From NCBI RefSeq assembly GCF_030166655.1, contig NZ_CP126446.1, positions 2,170,001 to 2,234,000 of the forward strand: 64,000 bases of DNA, given 5' to 3'. Made by a program: the position numbers and the translations under genes. The notes under the pieces were generated by a model. That model saw only the letters and a list, made by a program, of their open reading frames with translations, searched no databases and was not told the DNA's origin. This stretch comes from Pontibacillus chungwhensis. Lineage in GTDB: Bacteria; Bacillota; Bacilli; Bacillales; BH030062. Positions 5,165 to 18,905 of the stretch are shown here, in pieces; position 1 is the stretch's first letter; the number at the start of each line of letters is the position of its first letter.

Positions 5165-6835
5165 TTAAAATAACCCTTTTGCTTTTCCAGACGCATCAAC
5201 ATCCATCTTTAGAGCGGCCGGTTCTTTAGGTAAACCAGGCATCGTCATAACATCTCCTGTTAGAGCCACTATAAAGCCCGCTCCAATAGAAGGACTGAAT
5301 TCCCTGATGGTAATGGTAAAGTCAGATGGCCGACCAAGTAATGCAGGGTCATCAGAAAGAGAATACTGCGTTTTAGCCATACAGATCGGTAGGTTCCCCC
5401 AACCCAACTGATCATACAATTTCATTTGTTTCTTCGCCTGGTTGGAAAACTCGACATCTTTAGCCCCGTAAACAGTCCGGGCAATTTTCCTCACCTTCTC
5501 ATCAATCGGATCTTCAAGTTCATACGTATAAGTGAAGGAACGAGCCTCCTTATCAACAGTATCCATGACAGCCCGAGCAAGATCGAGACCACCTGTGCCA
5601 CCTTTAGCATGAACTTCAGTAAGAGCTACCCGAACGTTCTGCTCTTCACACCACTTCTCTACAAAATTTAATTCTTCTTCTGTATCAGTTGGAAAACGAT
5701 TAATGGCGACCACAAAAGGAAGACCAAAGGATTCAATCGTTTCCATATGTTTTTTTAAATTAGACATTCCCTCTTGTAGTGCGTTAACATTCTCTTCTCC
5801 TAATCCCTCTTTTGGAACACCACCATGCATTTTCAAAGCTCGAACAGTAGCGACTATAACGACCGCATCCGGCGTGAAGTCCCCAGCTCGTGTTTTGATA
5901 TTAAGGAACTTCTCTGCTCCCAAATCAGCACCAAAACCGGCTTCTGTGATAACGTATTCACCTAGTTTAGAAGCAATTGTAGTAGCCATAACACTATTAC
6001 AACCGTGGGCAATGTTTGCAAAAGGTCCCCCATGGACAATAGCAGGCGTATTCTCGATAGTTTGCACAAGATTTGGTTTAATGGCTTCTTTAAGAAGTAG
6101 CGTTAATGCTCCTTCCATTCCTAGCTGTTGTACCGTAACAGGCTTGTCTTCATAGGTGTAACCAAATACAATTCGAGCCAAACGGTTCTTCAAATCTTCC
6201 AAATCAGAAGCAAGACATAAAATAGCCATGATTTCTGAAGCTACACTAATATTGAATCCATCTTCCCTCGGAACTCCTTTTAAAGGCCCTCCTAAACCGA
6301 CAACAACTTCCCGTAATGCTCGATCATTTAGGTCAAGAACTCTCTTCCAACCAATCTTTCTAGGATCGATGTTCAATTCGTTCCCTCGGTGAATATGATT
6401 ATCGATAAAGGCTGACAGCGCATTGTTAGCACTCGTAATTGCGTGAATGTCTCCCGTAAAGTGTAAATTAATATCTTCCATCGGCAATACTTGGGAGTAG
6501 CCGCCACCTGCTGCCCCTCCCTTTAAACCCATTGTCGGCCCAAGAGATGGCTCTCTTAGTGCAATAACAGTCCTTTTGTTTAACTGATTCATTGCTTGAC
6601 CTAGTCCCACAGTAACAGTCGATTTACCTTCCCCGGCGGGTGTAGGGTTTATCGCTGTCACAAGGACTACCTTTCCATCTTTTCGATCGGATAATTTATG
6701 TAATAGAGATTCTGATAACTTGGCTTTATATCGACCATATGGCTCCCAGTCTTCGTAATCCAGATCTAATTGATTTGTGATGTCTTCGATTGGTTTCATA
6801 GTAGCTTCTTGCGCAATTTCTATATCTTTTTTCAT
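5165..6835 (-). CDS. fhs: formate-tetrahydrofolate ligase
   Basis: It joins formate to tetrahydrofolate with ATP to give 10-formyl-THF for purine synthesis and initiator tRNA formylation. The 556-residue product has the family's size and motifs: the ATP-loop region [16 protein letters not shown] (about residues 66-81), [22 protein letters not shown] (written here in two blocks, [10 protein letters not shown] and [11 protein letters not shown]), [15 protein letters not shown] and a C-terminal [13 protein letters not shown] 6835 follows AAAGGAGTATTATA. It stands alone with its own terminator. No tetrahydrofolate riboswitch is recognisable upstream. Together with thyA-dfrA it belongs to one-carbon metabolism. 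Confidence 0.97.
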
Positions 6836-6983
6836 TATAATACTCCTTTCGTAAATACTTTTATAGTTTAGATGAAATGGTACTAAAAATGCAAAGAACG
6901 GGTATTCTAATAAAGGAAAGCATTCAATTAGTTGGTAAACGAATTGAGAAAATACAATTTGTTTTAAAAATTCTTATTACTCC

Positions 6984-7013
6984 TTGACTTCCTTTATAAA
7001 TATAAGCTATATT
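6984..7013 (+). promoter_or_regulatory. sigma-A-type promoter ahead of the csp leader
   Basis: TTGACT (6984-6989), 18-base spacer, TATATT (7008-7013). It is the best promoter in the 353-base gap between fhs and csp and would start a transcript near 7020, about 170 bases upstream of the csp start codon. The rest of the gap (6836-6980) is AT-rich and shows nothing clear. Confidence 0.6.
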
Positions 7014-7019
7014 AGACCT

Positions 7020-7117
7020 AAGCAAAGAAGATGTGGAATCATGAAAGACGAGGTAACTTCAATAGAAGTGGTCGGGATTTGATGATCCTACATTTCTACT
7101 GGAGTTACCCTTTTTTA
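7020..7117 (+). ncRNA. terminated leader RNA or small RNA upstream of csp
   Basis: A transcript from the promoter at 6984 would fold 7052-7109 into a long rod: GGTAACT with AGTTACC, then CAATAGAAGTG with CATTTCTACTG (one mismatch, one G-U), then GGAT-ttgatg-ATCC at the tip. A C and six T residues follow at 7110-7116, so the rod is an intrinsic terminator. It is either a separate RNA of about 98 nt or an attenuator in the csp leader. No Rfam family is recognised by eye. Confidence 0.5.
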
Positions 7118-7151
7118 TGTATTTCTTACATCAACTTTGTATTATCACGTC

Positions 7152-7167
7152 TCACGTTTAAACGTGA
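7152..7167 (+). promoter_or_regulatory. perfect 16-bp palindrome directly upstream of the csp ribosome site
   Basis: TCACGTTTAAACGTGA is fully self-complementary and ends seven bases before AGGAGG. It may be an operator or a small RNA hairpin affecting access to the ribosome site. Confidence 0.5.
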
Positions 7168-7188
7168 ATGTTTTAGGAGGATTTTACA

Positions 7189-7389
7189 ATGCAAAACGGT
7201 ACAGTAAAATGGTTTAACGCAGAAAAAGGTTATGGTTTCATCCAAGTAGAAGGTGGAAACGATGTATTCGTACACTTCTCTGCAATCCAAGAAGAAGGTT
7301 TCAAAACACTTGAAGAAGGTCAAAGCGTTTCTTTCGAAATCGTAGAAGGCGACCGTGGCCCTCAAGCTGCTAACGTTGTAAAAAACTAA
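7189..7389 (+). CDS. cold-shock protein, CspA/CspB family
   Basis: Single OB-fold nucleic-acid-binding protein of 66 residues, acting as an RNA chaperone and transcription antiterminator. Both RNP motifs are intact: KGYGFIQV at residues 13-20 and VFVHF at about 27-31, with the invariant [11 protein letters not shown] start. AGGAGG sits 8 bases before ATG 7189. The gene has a long, structured leader (promoter at 6984, terminated rod, palindrome at 7152) and its own terminator at 7415. The particular B. subtilis orthologue (cspB, cspC or cspD) cannot be decided by eye. Confidence 0.97.
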
Positions 7390-7414
7390 ATTAACCAAAA
7401 ACGCATGAAATATA

Positions 7415-7446
7415 GCGACAACTCATACGAGTTGTCGCTTTTTTAT
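7415..7446 (+). terminator. terminator of csp
   Basis: GCGACAACTC-ata-CGAGTTGTCGC followed by TTTTTT, 25 bases after the csp stop. Confidence 0.9.
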
Positions 7447-7501
7447 GGGTAAAAATCCAAAAGGCGCAGACCATAACTGGTAATGGATACACCTTCCTAT
7501 A

Positions 7502-7530
7502 TTGAAAAACGGTTCTACAACCCGTATAAT
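7502..7530 (+). promoter_or_regulatory. strong sigma-A promoter for ypdP
   Basis: TTGAAA (7502-7507), 17-base spacer, consensus TATAAT (7525-7530). The transcript would start near 7537, just before the hairpin at 7550. Confidence 0.8.
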
Positions 7531-7549
7531 TGTTTACCGTTGTGCATAG

Positions 7550-7588
7550 CGCAGTTCGAAACTTCCTGCGAGATCAAAACTAGAAAGG
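7550..7588 (+). promoter_or_regulatory. probable preQ1-I riboswitch, translational type
   Basis: A five-base-pair stem CGCAG/CTGCG (7550-7554 with 7566-7570) closes an 11-base loop. It is followed by an A-rich tail AGATCAAAACTAG that runs into the ribosome site AAAGGA of ypdP. Stem length, loop length, A-rich CAAAAC tail and overlap with the ribosome site match the preQ1-I architecture seen in Thermoanaerobacter. The gene controlled is a queuosine-precursor transporter. The second (pseudoknot) helix is not clear by eye, so this remains probable. Confidence 0.45.
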
Positions 7589-7597
7589 ATTGAAGAT

Positions 7598-8266
7598 ATG
7601 AACGAATTATTATGGATTGTTTTTGCTATCATTAATTTTTCCATGCTTACACTGATCTATAAGGGATTCGGTAAACAAGGCCTATTTGTTTGGATTGGAA
7701 TGGCTACTGTTGTAGCAAACATTCAGGTTACAAAAACAATAGAAATGTTTGGTTTGACCGCTACCTTAGGTAATATTATTTATGGGACAGTTTTCTTAGC
7801 TACAGATATATTAAATGAGAAGTATGGAAAAGAGGAAGCGAAAAAAGCAGTATGGTTAGGTTTTTTCACGCTTATTAGTATGACGGTTATGATGCAAATA
7901 GCGGTCAAGTGGTTTACTCCAGTTGGAGGCGAGGTTCAGGCAGCTTTAGAAACCATCTTTGGTTTATTACCACGGGTGGCCGCAGGGAGTCTGGTCGCAT
8001 ACATTGTCAGTCAATATATTGACGTTTTCATTTATTCTAAATTAAAAAGTATGTTCTCAGACGACCGTTTTCTTTGGGTACGAAATAATGGTAGTACGAT
8101 GATCAGCCAACTACTTGATTCATTAGTATTTACCTTAATTGCTTTCTTAGGAGAGGTACCGACTAATATTTGGGTTGAGATCTTTACTACCACCTATGTC
8201 ATTAAATTTGTAGTCGCTATGCTCGATACGCCTTTTCTTTATATCGCAAAGCGATTTCATAAATAG
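7598..8266 (+). CDS. ypdP: queuosine precursor transporter, YhhQ/YpdP family
   Basis: Integral membrane protein of 222 residues with about six hydrophobic helices. The family signature is visible as VVANIQVTKTIEMFG, TLGNIIYGTVFLATDILNEKYG (two blocks: TLGNIIYG and FLATDILNEKYG) and SQLLDSLVFTLIAF. YhhQ proteins import queuosine precursors such as preQ0/preQ1. The upstream riboswitch candidate supports that substrate. ypeP follows 24 bases downstream as in B. subtilis. ATG 7598 uses AAAGGA, which lies in the riboswitch tail. Confidence 0.9.
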   Translation: MNELLWIVFAIINFSMLTLIYKGFGKQGLFVWIGMATVVANIQVTKTIEMFGLTATLGNIIYGTVFLATDILNEKYGKEEAKKAVWLGFFTLISMTVMMQIAVKWFTPVGGEVQAALETIFGLLPRVAAGSLVAYIVSQYIDVFIYSKLKSMFSDDRFLWVRNNGSTMISQLLDSLVFTLIAFLGEVPTNIWVEIFTTTYVIKFVVAMLDTPFLYIAKRFHK

Positions 8267-8680: not shown

Positions 8681-8719
8681 AACCCCGCACTCCTATCTGC
8701 TGATAGAGTGCGGGGTTTT
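8679..8719. terminator. bidirectional terminator between ypeP and the convergent DUF6123 gene
   Basis: AAAACCCCGCACTC...GAGTGCGGGGTTTT is a 14-bp perfect stem with flanking A and T runs, serving both convergent genes. The stop of the minus-strand gene lies inside it. Confidence 0.92.
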
Positions 8720-8995
8720 CCTTTTATTCAAGCCTTTTTGTTCTATTAGCTTCCAAGCTTCTCGCTTTGATCGAGGATGGTTTTCATGTAAAAACTCCAA
8801 AACTCCGATAAAAAAACTTCCATCAAATTTCATTTGAAACTGAATGGTAACCGTTAAAGCAAAGATGACGAGCCAATCTTCAGAGTTTGTATAATTTTTG
8901 CCGAAATATATAAAGTGAATATCTTGATCTGATAATCGAAAACCTTTTGACCAAAGATCTTCTATAAAATACCCAAGCGATTTCGATAGCGGCAT
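8693..8995 (-). CDS. uncharacterised conserved protein, probably DUF6123 family
   Basis: A 100-residue soluble protein with a block resembling the Bacillaceae DUF6123 family: IEDLWSKGFRLSDQDIHFI at about residues 11-29, then YFGKNYTNSEDWLV. Function unknown. The last few residues are encoded within the terminator stem shared with ypeP, so the C-terminal end is probably not conserved. No clear partner gene; the sulfurtransferase next to it is a separate minus-strand unit downstream of its own start. The family name is from memory. Confidence 0.6.
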   Translation of the reverse strand: MPLSKSLGYFIEDLWSKGFRLSDQDIHFIYFGKNYTNSEDWLVIFALTVTIQFQMKFDGSFFIGVLEFLHENHPRSKREAWKLIEQKGLNKRKTPHSISR

Positions 8996-9984: not shown

Positions 9985-10011
9985 TAAAAAAGCCAGGCAC
10001 TTTACCTGGCT
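9985..10011 (-). terminator. terminator overlapping the end of the 58-residue gene
   Basis: Minus strand AGCCAGG-taaagtg-CCTGGCT followed by TTTTTT. The stop codon of the small gene lies in the loop. Confidence 0.8.
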
Positions 10012-10178
10012 GATAGTATATCTTCGTATTTTCTTTGTTTTGCTTCAGCAGAACGTAATGTATGTTTTCCTTTAATTAAATCAACTAAGTATAACGCTTT
10101 TTCATCACGAAGTTTGGCCAGAATGCCAACCATTAGTATTGAATAAATCACTACAATCCCCATTATTAGAAAAACCAT
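10002..10178 (-). CDS. small basic single-helix membrane protein, probably Fur-regulated
   Basis: An open frame of 58 codons. The N terminus MVFLIMGIVVIYSILMVGIL is one membrane helix (about residues 2-21). It is followed by a charged cytoplasmic-type tail with KLRDEKALYLVDLIKGKH and AEAKQRKYEDIL blocks, net basic. ATG 10178 follows GAGGGG at five bases. It has a near-consensus promoter, two Fur-box matches and its own terminator, so it is a complete transcription unit. It is not recognised as one of the known B. subtilis Fur-regulated basic proteins FbpA, FbpB or FbpC. A role under iron limitation is inference from the operators only. Confidence 0.75.
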   Translation of the reverse strand: MVFLIMGIVVIYSILMVGILAKLRDEKALYLVDLIKGKHTLRSAEAKQRKYEDILSAR

Positions 10179-10197
10179 CTTAGCCCCTCACTTCCAG

Positions 10198-10212
10198 TGA
10201 TAATGATTTTCA
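10198..10212 (-). promoter_or_regulatory. Fur box 1
   Basis: TGATAATGATTTTCA matches the 7-1-7 Fur consensus TGATAATnATTATCA at 13 of 14 positions. It covers about +5 to +19 of the transcript predicted for the 58-residue gene. Confidence 0.7.
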
Positions 10213-10223
10213 TTTCTAAATAG

Positions 10224-10252
10224 ATTATAGCAATCTTTAGAAAAGTTTTCAA
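10224..10252 (-). promoter_or_regulatory. sigma-A promoter of the 58-residue gene
   Basis: Read on the minus strand: TTGAAA (10252-10247), 17-base spacer, TATAAT (10229-10224). Transcription would start near 10217. Confidence 0.75.
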
Positions 10253-10258
10253 TGAGAA

Positions 10259-10273
10259 TGAGAAATATTTTCA
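10259..10273 (-). promoter_or_regulatory. Fur box 2
   Basis: TGAGAAATATTTTCA matches the 7-1-7 Fur consensus at 11-12 of 14 positions. It lies just upstream of the -35 box and abuts the stop codon of the methyltransferase gene. Confidence 0.5.
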
Positions 10274-10274
10274 A

Positions 10275-10787
10275 TCATTCTGAAAGTTTGGTGAGAGCCC
10301 TTTCTTCGTGAGGAATCCGAATTTTCATTAAACCTAAATGGAGCAACGGGAATAAAACCGCAGACATATAGGCGTTAAAAAGGAGCGGAATAATGATAAA
10401 TTCCAAACCAACTACTACGTAATTTGGATGCTTCATCCATTTGTAGGGACCTCTTGCTACTAACTGTGACCCAGGTAAAATAATAATCTTTGTGTTCCAG
10501 AACCTACCAAGGGATGTTAAACACCAGATTCGTAATCCCTGCGTTACAAAAAACGCCCCCAACAAAAACCCTTTCCAATCAGATAATACTAAATCCTTAC
10601 CATACGCTTCTAATCCAACTGATACAAAAAATAAAACATGTACAGCCACAATCCATTTGTAATGATCACTAGCGACTTCTACTGCACCATTTCGCAACAT
10701 CCACTTTTCATTCCGCTTCGCAACAGCAACCTCAATAAGTCGTTGTGCAATGATAAATACGAATAATACGACAAACCATCCGCTCAT
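10275..10787 (-). CDS. bpsB: isoprenylcysteine-carboxyl-methyltransferase-like membrane methyltransferase (BpsB/YpbQ)
   Basis: Membrane protein of 170 residues with about five hydrophobic helices and the ICMT-family motif GPYKWMKHPNYVVV (about residues 112-125), then a C-terminal PHEERAL. In B. subtilis the partner of the type III polyketide synthase BpsA is this methyltransferase, which O-methylates alkylpyrones. It overlaps the end of bpsA by ATGA and is translationally coupled. ATG 10787 is preferred over a GTG nine bases upstream because GGAG is better spaced. Confidence 0.87.
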   Translation of the reverse strand: MSGWFVVLFVFIIAQRLIEVAVAKRNEKWMLRNGAVEVASDHYKWIVAVHVLFFVSVGLEAYGKDLVLSDWKGFLLGAFFVTQGLRIWCLTSLGRFWNTKIIILPGSQLVARGPYKWMKHPNYVVVGLEFIIIPLLFNAYMSAVLFPLLHLGLMKIRIPHEERALTKLSE

Positions 10788-11872
10788 TTTAACCACTCCA
10801 AACTGACTAATTCTGAGCTAAACCCAGGCCCTAATGCAGCCAGAATACTAGCTGTACCTTCTTTTGGAAATTCTTCCATCCAACGCTTCAGCACATGAAT
10901 GACGGTCGCAGAAGACATATTTCCATGCTGCTTTAAGACTTCATATGAGTGACTGAACTTTTTCTCTGAGCTATTTAAAACTTCCTGATACGCTTGCAAT
11001 ACTTTTTGTCCACCTGGATGAGCAACAAAGAAGGAGAGATCACTTTCTTTCTTATGGATTGTACTTAAAAACTGTTCAACATGGCCTTTCCAAAAAGTTT
11101 CAACTAGAACTGGGATGCTTTTAGCAAATACGACTTGAAAGCCATCTTCGTTGACGTTCCATCCCATTACATCCAAAGCGTGCTTTTTTAATTTAGAACT
11201 TGATTGATTCATTTGAGGCGCTGTAGAGATTCGATTAGACGCATAAGGTGATTTTTCACCAACGACTAATGCAGCAGCGATACCATCTCCAAATAGCGCA
11301 GTACCTATGAAATTACTTTTTCTTCGATCATTCTTTTGAAAAGTCAAACCACATAATTCCACACAGACCACTAAAATATTGGATTCTGGATAGAGGTGGG
11401 CAAAATCCATAGCTCGCGCAAGTCCTGCCCCTCCCCCAGCACAACCTAACCCCCATAAAGGAACTCGCTTTACATCTTCTCTAAATTCACGCTCATTCAT
11501 TATACGAGCATCAATGGTTGGTGTGGCAACCCCGGTACTTGATACGTAAATGATATAGTCAATTGCTTCATAGGGGACTGGCTCTTGTAAAAAAGTTTTA
11601 TTTTTTAAGCAATCATCAATAGCTTCTAGGGAATAAGACAATGCTTTCTCCTCATACAGTTCATTTCGCTCTTGGAAAGTATGTGGTTGTCCAAACCATT
11701 CTTTAGGGACTACAAATTGTCTCTTATCAACCGCAGCGTTTTCAAATACAGGTAAAAGTCTGGTAATCTCCCGTTCAGAACGTGGAAAAACTTCTTTCAC
11801 AAAGGACTGTATATCTCGTTGTGCAATTTCATATTCCGGAATGCTAACACCCACCGATGTGATCCATGCCAT
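10784..11872 (-). CDS. bpsA: type III polyketide synthase (alkylpyrone synthase BpsA)
   Basis: Chalcone-synthase-like homodimeric enzyme that extends fatty acyl-CoA with malonyl-CoA to make alkylpyrones. The 362-residue product has the Cys-His-Asn triad visible: GLGCAGGGAG (Cys144), VAHPGGQKVL (His285) and HGNMSSAT (Asn318), plus FGDGIAAALV and a C-terminal LGPGFSSELV. ATG 11872 follows AGAGGGATAAT; the frame is open 34 codons further upstream but without a site. It is followed by the methyltransferase with a 4-base overlap. Product chemistry is inferred from B. subtilis BpsA. Confidence 0.92.
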   Translation of the reverse strand: MAWITSVGVSIPEYEIAQRDIQSFVKEVFPRSEREITRLLPVFENAAVDKRQFVVPKEWFGQPHTFQERNELYEEKALSYSLEAIDDCLKNKTFLQEPVPYEAIDYIIYVSSTGVATPTIDARIMNEREFREDVKRVPLWGLGCAGGGAGLARAMDFAHLYPESNILVVCVELCGLTFQKNDRRKSNFIGTALFGDGIAAALVVGEKSPYASNRISTAPQMNQSSSKLKKHALDVMGWNVNEDGFQVVFAKSIPVLVETFWKGHVEQFLSTIHKKESDLSFFVAHPGGQKVLQAYQEVLNSSEKKFSHSYEVLKQHGNMSSATVIHVLKRWMEEFPKEGTASILAALGPGFSSELVSLEWLK

Positions 11873-11997
11873 ATTATCCCTCTTCCATTTTTCTTTTAGC
11901 ATGCCTCCTGCTCGTATATTTACTCGCTTTTTATGTGGCTTTTCCTTCTTAATTAAACTTTGCTTAATGATCAAATGAAGGTGGATATTTCATAGAC

Positions 11998-18504: not shown

Positions 18505-18905
18505 CCTGATGAATGCTTTGTAAGCCATGTTCTGTACCTTTGTACTACAATCGGTGGTCAACCTCGTACATAAGGTGGTAATCATCTATCTACAAGCTTA
18601 AAGCTTGTCTCTTCGTATTGGTTGAATTTCCTCAGAAGAGTGCCCCTACCTAATTTTGGGTTGCTCGCTCGTGGGGTTTACCTCGTTCCACTTTGATTGT
18701 TTCCAATCAAACTTCGTCACTGTGGCACTTTCAAAGTAGTTACACCATATCTTAATGACGTAGGTGTTTTCCCTGCCGTTAGTGTGAACACTACCTTGAC
18801 TTATGGTTTCGTCAAGCACGATCACTACAAGCATCTCAGCTTGTGCGAGCATGGACTTTCCTCTACATGATTAGTCATGCAGCGATTACCCAAGCATTCA
18901 TCAAC
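18505..18905 (-). ncRNA. rnpB: RNase P RNA, Bacillus (B) type
   Basis: Catalytic RNA of RNase P, about 400 nt, which matures tRNA 5' ends. Read on the minus strand, the hallmark segments of the B. subtilis RNA are present in order: GGGTAATCGCTGCA near the 5' end, GAGGAAAGTCCATGCTCGCAC, GACGGCAGGGAAA, GAAAGTGCCACAGTGACGAA, GGTAAACCCC, TAGGTAGGGGCA, and AGATAGATGATTACC then AACATGGCTTACA. The ends GATGAATGCTT and AAGCATTCATC pair as helix P1, setting the boundaries. The gap to ypsC holds only the terminator. Open frames inside it are noise. Confidence 0.97.

Follow-up and report, generated by a model that had tools for sequence, protein, structure and literature searches.

A short gene preceded by Fur boxes lies directly behind bpsA-bpsB in Pontibacillus chungwhensis and is predicted to encode a 58-residue membrane microprotein with a single helix. 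The protein is probably the positional orthologue of FbpC and a distant, long-tailed homologue of it, with a membrane nature that the two would share. The window in which the gene was found (by which we mean the whole 64,000-nucleotide stretch of DNA that was analysed) had given rise to an original prediction that an independent transcription unit, equipped with Fur boxes, specifies a small membrane protein with one helix. At the level of sequence this was borne out, and the unit proved to be conserved in relatives, Fur boxes included.

The transcription unit and its reading frame

All of the parts that had been claimed for the unit were found on the minus strand, namely the promoter, the ribosome-binding site, 58 codons, one predicted membrane helix and a terminator that overlaps the stop codon, and so were a 13/14 Fur box after the predicted transcription start and a weaker 11/14 box before the -35 (Table 1). 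The promoter hexamers match the consensus at 11 of 12 positions and are the best of the eight promoter-like sites in a 3-kb scan, a number of sites that was not above chance (9.3 in shuffles). Because this generic promoter scan was not above chance, we put the weight on the Fur box and on conservation. In a nine-sequence alignment, TGnTAnAnT is kept.

Table 1. Positions of the unit, its parts and its two conserved neighbours in the window
Feature	Position	Strand	Basis or context
Main Fur box TGAAAATCATTATCA, 13/14	10198..10212	minus	just past the predicted transcription start
Second, weaker Fur box TGAAAATATTTCTCA, 11/14	10259..10273	minus	immediately 5' of the -35, right after the bpsB stop codon
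Promoter TTGAAA-17-TATAAT, TG before the -10	10224..10252	minus	3-kb scan and nine-sequence alignment
Ribosome-binding site GAGGGG	10184..10189	minus	GGG core kept in 9/9 aligned sequences
58-codon ORF, probable FbpC-type single-pass membrane microprotein, long-tailed	10002..10178 (ATG 10176-10178)	minus	relatives, dN/dS, profile match
Predicted membrane helix, conserved family core TVxxYSxLM	10119..10175 (codons 2-20)	minus	Kyte-Doolittle and alignment
Intrinsic terminator	9985..10011	minus	5' arm includes the stop codon and the codons for the final Ala-Arg
bpsB homologue (methyltransferase), conserved upstream neighbour, outside the unit	10275..10796	minus	weak NCBIfam isoprenylcysteine methyltransferase match below cut-off; synteny
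bpsA homologue (type III polyketide synthase), conserved neighbour	10784..11974	minus	family of the L112 homologue and synteny

The terminator stem (9991-10011) has nine pairs followed by TTTTT and overlaps the last codons and the stop. Four terminator-like sites were found in the 3-kb scan versus 2.1 in shuffles. With one fixed pattern (5' arm CC[AT]GG), the overlap of terminator and frame end was detected in 23 of the 75 relatives described below, the window included. Because the stem sits at the frame end in these 23, the last residues, Ala/Thr-Arg, double as terminator stem, and termination and the C-terminal Arg are coupled. This coupling argues against explaining the C-terminal Arg by the protein alone. 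Folding of the transcript as a whole was ordinary (z of -0.85 versus shuffles).

To judge from its codon substitutions, the 58-codon frame is a real gene under purifying selection. Compared with L003, a relative that is 90% identical, it differs at 7 first, 1 second and 20 third codon positions, with a dN of 0.058 and a dS of 0.89. The resulting dN/dS of about 0.07, as opposed to the value near 1 of an unconserved frame, rules out a chance ORF. Among other close pairs in the genus, G003 and G002 gave a dN of 0.015 and a dS of 0.19, and for G001 and G007 the values (dN 0.18, dS 0.29) indicate clearly weaker constraint. A scan of named genomes gave 90% identity across all 58 residues in Pontibacillus chungwhensis and P. 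salipaludis.

Elsewhere in the window, positions 7047-7443 of the plus strand match the Rfam cspA thermoregulator above its gathering score and cover a 66-residue, cold-shock-protein-like ORF (7189-7389). A full-length RNase P class B RNA lies on the minus strand at 18516-18897.

Fur boxes in the genome and in relatives

The main Fur box is the sole site scoring at least 13 within the window, and it is one of 10 sites with no more than one mismatch in the Pontibacillus genome (4.17 Mb); the pattern in reverse has no such site there. Among the genes close to other sites of this set are those for a Fur-family regulator, a flavodoxin, periplasmic-binding proteins, a FecCD permease, an ABC ATPase and, as the second gene along, an FTR1 iron permease. 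No iron gene was identified near 3 of the 10 sites (L232, L234 and L235). The Fur consensus that we used looks functional in this genome. One of the three sites (L232:1501, at G000:C1:953882) is a perfect 14/14 palindrome, and the gene downstream of it resembles an undecaprenyl-diphosphatase by eye and no iron gene by name. Among the eight other genomes of family f1, which has nine, the position of the main box is retained in seven and degenerate in G008. The equivalent of the second box scores 11 or 12 in five of the eight (G001, G002, G003, G004 and G007) and 10 in two (G005 and G006). In G008 an 11/14 box stands upstream of the degenerate position, somewhat closer to the gene than the second box is elsewhere.

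The search for relatives that the original prediction had proposed, with the plain 58-residue protein and an E value limit of 1, returned matches in 21 of 61 genomes, its own genome included. With a 12-row profile, A1, and E values up to 0.1, 92 places were matched in 84 of 397 genomes from the order; 91 of these places were examined (G299 was left out). All 37 of the A1 places with an E value below 0.001 in the 397 genomes have an upstream Fur score of at least 11; among the 54 examined places with a higher E value, 23 have such a score and 31 do not. Twenty of the A1 places, mostly in long frames or with stops, were judged to be likely chance matches, and a Fur score of at least 11 was found in none of them. 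We then worked from a table of 86 loci, made up of 70 profile A1 loci and 16 FbpC-model loci (L095 is in both sets); L097, L100, L101 and L103 duplicate L089, L067, L084 and L076 and were not entered in it. A Fur score of at least 11 precedes 75 of these 86 loci, each in a different one of the 397 genomes; these 75 are the relatives counted throughout. At least 92 of the 397 genomes carry a Fur-preceded member, because a bpsB-anchored search added 13 to these 75 and further profile matches added 4. Outside the order, and within the same class, G467 and G618 of another order carry a member with a box of 12; the 4 other matches outside the order have no Fur box.

An upstream Fur score of at least 12 was found in 66 of the 75 relatives, a count that is partly circular because the set was selected for a box of at least 11, versus 1 of the 1365 stretches taken from the same loci as controls and 12 of 1500 Markov shuffles. 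The counts from the bpsB-anchored search and from the A1 places with an E value below 0.001 are not circular, and the background at a score of at least 11 was 21 of 1365 control stretches. The motif scan in relatives, a second check that the original prediction had named, thus came out in its favor. A chance Fur box is ruled out by the counts in relatives versus controls and by the rarity of such sites genome-wide (10 sites).

In one genus (f29 g30; L044, L045, L046, L048, L051, L055 and L056), the Fur-preceded gene is not behind bpsB. The proteins there start like MVYxLIxLTIVxYFLIxIRIF, and they are a relocated or a separate branch.

Conserved helix, chromosomal position and relation to FbpC

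The window protein has one hydrophobic stretch, residues 2-20, with a Kyte-Doolittle mean of 2.86 over the best 19-residue window. A mean of at least 1.6 over 19 residues was found in 73 of the 75 relatives; the two that fell short are L058 and L104, and the start of L104 had been set too late (24 residues, where 28 is correct). Ahead of the helix, 72 of the 75 carry no net charge and the other three carry -1; after the helix, the net charge is +1 or more in 70. Three members have a net charge of 0. By the positive-inside rule, the charges around the helix place the C-terminus in the cytoplasm, so that the predicted topology of the window protein has the N-terminus outside and the basic C-terminal tail inside. 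A tyrosine occupies position 11-13 in 74 of the 75 relatives, and it is not strictly invariant, because F or C replaces it in three bpsB-anchored genes (G017, G019 and G024). The proteins are 26 to 58 residues long (with L104 corrected) and fall into groups near 30 and near 57. Their tails, from a few residues to about 37, share no motif across a 31-row alignment. As aligned, the conserved part of the protein is the helix, not the tail.

Next, we examined where the gene lies. The name bpsB for the neighbour in the window is taken from the original prediction, and the name bpsA is our assumption; the homologues of the two in L112 belong to the chalcone/stilbene synthase family (bpsA, 6683-7789) and the ICMT family (bpsB, 6174-6749). 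For 63 of the 75 relatives, among them FbpC, the gene follows a bpsB homologue of the same orientation, usually by 80-230 bases and by about 500 at most; this holds for 0 of the 11 loci without a Fur box. The 12 remaining relatives lie away from bpsB. One genus accounts for 7 of them, and G042 and G036 have the gene away from a bpsB that persists elsewhere in the genome. The neighbours of relocated copies, which include MgtE and a phosphorylase-family gene (G137) and DUF3221 and an FMN oxidoreductase (G042), showed nothing consistent. In the reverse test, which started from bpsB, 56 of 61 genomes had bpsB, and 29 of the 56 had a Fur score of at least 12 within 560 bases behind it, all 29 with a short hydrophobic ORF by eye. 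The same type of ORF stands behind bpsB in G008 with a box of 11, and in the remaining 26 of the 56 there was no such Fur box and, by eye, no such ORF.

The gene that follows in the FbpC locus L112 encodes a dynamin-family protein of 1197 residues, and a frame of similar size, about 1200 residues, stands there in several further loci; Pontibacillus has a sulfurtransferase-like gene in this place instead. We take ypbQ of Bacillus subtilis to be bpsB and ypbR to be the gene for the dynamin DynA. In an excerpt from a published table, ypbQ is followed by ypbR on the reverse strand (PMC4448311), and an excerpt from a review lists ypbQ among Fur-regulated genes (PMC12943173). Farther along in the window, on the minus strand at 8693-8995, Pfam identifies a DUF6123 protein of 100 residues, relatives of which occur in the same neighbourhood in several genomes.

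FbpC and the window protein are alike in their Fur boxes, in having a short gene of their own directly behind bpsA-bpsB and in an N-terminal hydrophobic helix, TVxxYSxL, that is followed by basic residues. They differ in length, 58 residues versus 29 for FbpC, with about 30 residues of extra tail in the window protein. Within the tail of the long type, Y51 is invariant in nine of nine sequences, and an Ala/Thr-Arg end occurs in 29 of the 75 relatives. The NCBIfam FbpC model (NF033217, 29 positions) scores above its cut-off in 10 of 397 genomes, and the 10 loci above the cut-off (L089-L096, L098 and L099) have Fur boxes of 11-13 and all lie behind bpsB. Among 14 named control genomes, one was above the cut-off, and Bacillus subtilis heads the list of the five that had any match. 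The window protein has no match to NF033217 (none in G000 at an E value of 1 or less; the curated cut-off is 60 bits) and falls in no NCBIfam family. Therefore, we keep it out of the curated FbpC family, and its link to FbpC rests on position, Fur boxes and a comparison of group profiles.

In that comparison, NF033217 weakly matched one relative (E value of 0.0057), and profile A1, which was built without any FbpC, found an FbpC locus at an E value of 0.007 (G303). Aligning nine long-type sequences, the window included, with seven FbpC-type sequences in hhalign gave a probability of 85.9% and a score of 26.6, to be read with the caveat that profile statistics are weak for short hydrophobic helices. 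As a test of homology apart from hydrophobic composition, we permuted the FbpC core columns, and none of 200 permuted controls reached 26.6 (mean 10.3, maximum 19.3). Core-helix profile homology, a shared position and a Fur box at the promoter were thus all found for membership of a wider FbpC group, and FbpC genes and window-type genes look like the ends of one continuum. The original prediction had held that the protein resembles none of FbpA-C, which the profile match to FbpC (0 of 200 controls) and the shared place behind bpsB contradict. Its suggestion that the protein may be undescribed survives for the long-tailed form and otherwise falls, since the protein appears to be a homologue of FbpC. 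An unrelated orphan microprotein is ruled out by the relatives, the chromosomal position and the profile link to FbpC.

Proposed function and competing explanations

Going by established Fur biology, Fur on the boxes that flank the promoter would block transcription while iron is present. When iron falls, the peptide would be made, as the boxes and the known action of Fur imply, and from its sequence it would insert in the membrane. There, the conserved helix (Tyr12-Ser13, Leu15-Met16, Leu20 and Lys22 of the window protein) might dock on an integral membrane partner, for which a respiratory or transport complex is a candidate, and alter its activity, assembly or turnover. We rate the chance of such docking and modulation at roughly one in two. 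Other bacterial membrane microproteins modulate membrane complexes in such ways. MgtS and CydS resemble the window protein in having a single helix of similar size and are under regulators other than Fur. In an excerpt from work on B. subtilis, fbpC is named among the sites where Fur appeared to aid NsrR or ResD binding (PMC6212828), which would suit a link to respiration.

The Fbp proteins have been seen otherwise. FbpA (PF13076) and FbpB (PF13040) of Bacillus are small, basic and Fur controlled, and excerpts from two papers present FbpA-C as Fur-regulated small basic proteins and postulated RNA chaperones (PMC7430163, PMC8464778); in a third, FsrA is said to need partial support from the three Fbp proteins (PMC12871923). 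On this model, the window protein would be an RNA chaperone of the FsrA type, the helix being no more than a membrane tether and the basic tail the part that binds both the iron-sparing small RNA and the mRNAs it targets. The charge of +1 or more after the helix in 70 of the 75 relatives speaks for such a role, as does FbpB, which was above the cut-off in 21 of 21 relatives. However, it is the helix that is conserved, whereas the tails, which range in length from a few residues to about 37, have no motif in common in 31 rows, and three of the 75 members carry no net charge. Furthermore, FsrA was above the Rfam cut-off in 0 of the 21 relatives, with a narrow model that could miss it, and the excerpt from one of the papers calls RNA binding unconfirmed for every Fbp (PMC8464778). 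We consider this role unlikely for the window protein. Because the helix is conserved and the tails vary down to a net charge of zero, we favor a membrane microprotein over an RNA chaperone, and the same pattern suggests that FbpC itself may be a membrane peptide and not, as has been proposed, an RNA helper.

FbpA was above the cut-off in 5 of the 21 relatives and in none of the nine f1 genomes, eight of which had no match and one of which, G007, had a match below the cut-off. In the Pontibacillus genome, the best Rfam match to FsrA scored 33.4 bits versus a cut-off of 80, with no clear Fur box around it by eye, and this candidate was rejected. FbpB is a separate gene in that genome, distinct from the window protein, in which Pfam found neither FbpA nor FbpB and two viral models below their cut-offs (E values of 0.052 and 0.27). 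The pattern of FbpB in 21, FbpA in 5 and FsrA in 0 of 21 relatives is weakly consistent with the membrane microprotein.

The products of bpsA-bpsB are alkylpyrone lipids, and the peptide could act on these products or their pathway rather than in iron metabolism in general. That 63 of the 75 relatives adjoin bpsB fits such a role, but the gene is served by a separate promoter, with Fur boxes, and by a separate terminator, at least two lineages (G042 and G036) have it elsewhere though bpsB is kept, and 26 of the 56 bpsB genomes lack it behind bpsB, all of which leaves this explanation quite improbable. That the transcript is chiefly a Fur-regulated small RNA, with the peptide secondary, deserves still less credence, since a short self-contained unit with a strong terminator, whose stem is shared with the frame end, would suit it, but 20 of the 28 differences from L003 are at third codon positions (dN 0.058, dS 0.89), the stability of the fold does not exceed that of shuffles (z of -0.85), no Rfam family reaches its gathering score within 9985..10273 and the protein pattern persists across many families.

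Within the titles and abstract openings that literature searches returned, drawn mostly from outside subscription journals, neither FbpC as a membrane protein nor a wider family is described. In the broadest form of our proposal, FbpC and its unannotated relatives would be one old Bacilli family of iron starvation membrane microproteins, not RNA chaperones, with a helix that retunes a conserved membrane complex and, in some lineages, a long tail added as a second, cytoplasmic module; we give this proposal an even chance of being right. The gene, caught by the NCBI model in 10 of 397 genomes, can now be recognized in at least 92 of the 397, which provides many natural variants to compare. Taken together, a broad family with a conserved helix and a nearly invariant tyrosine would be a reason to seek a membrane partner, and not only RNA.
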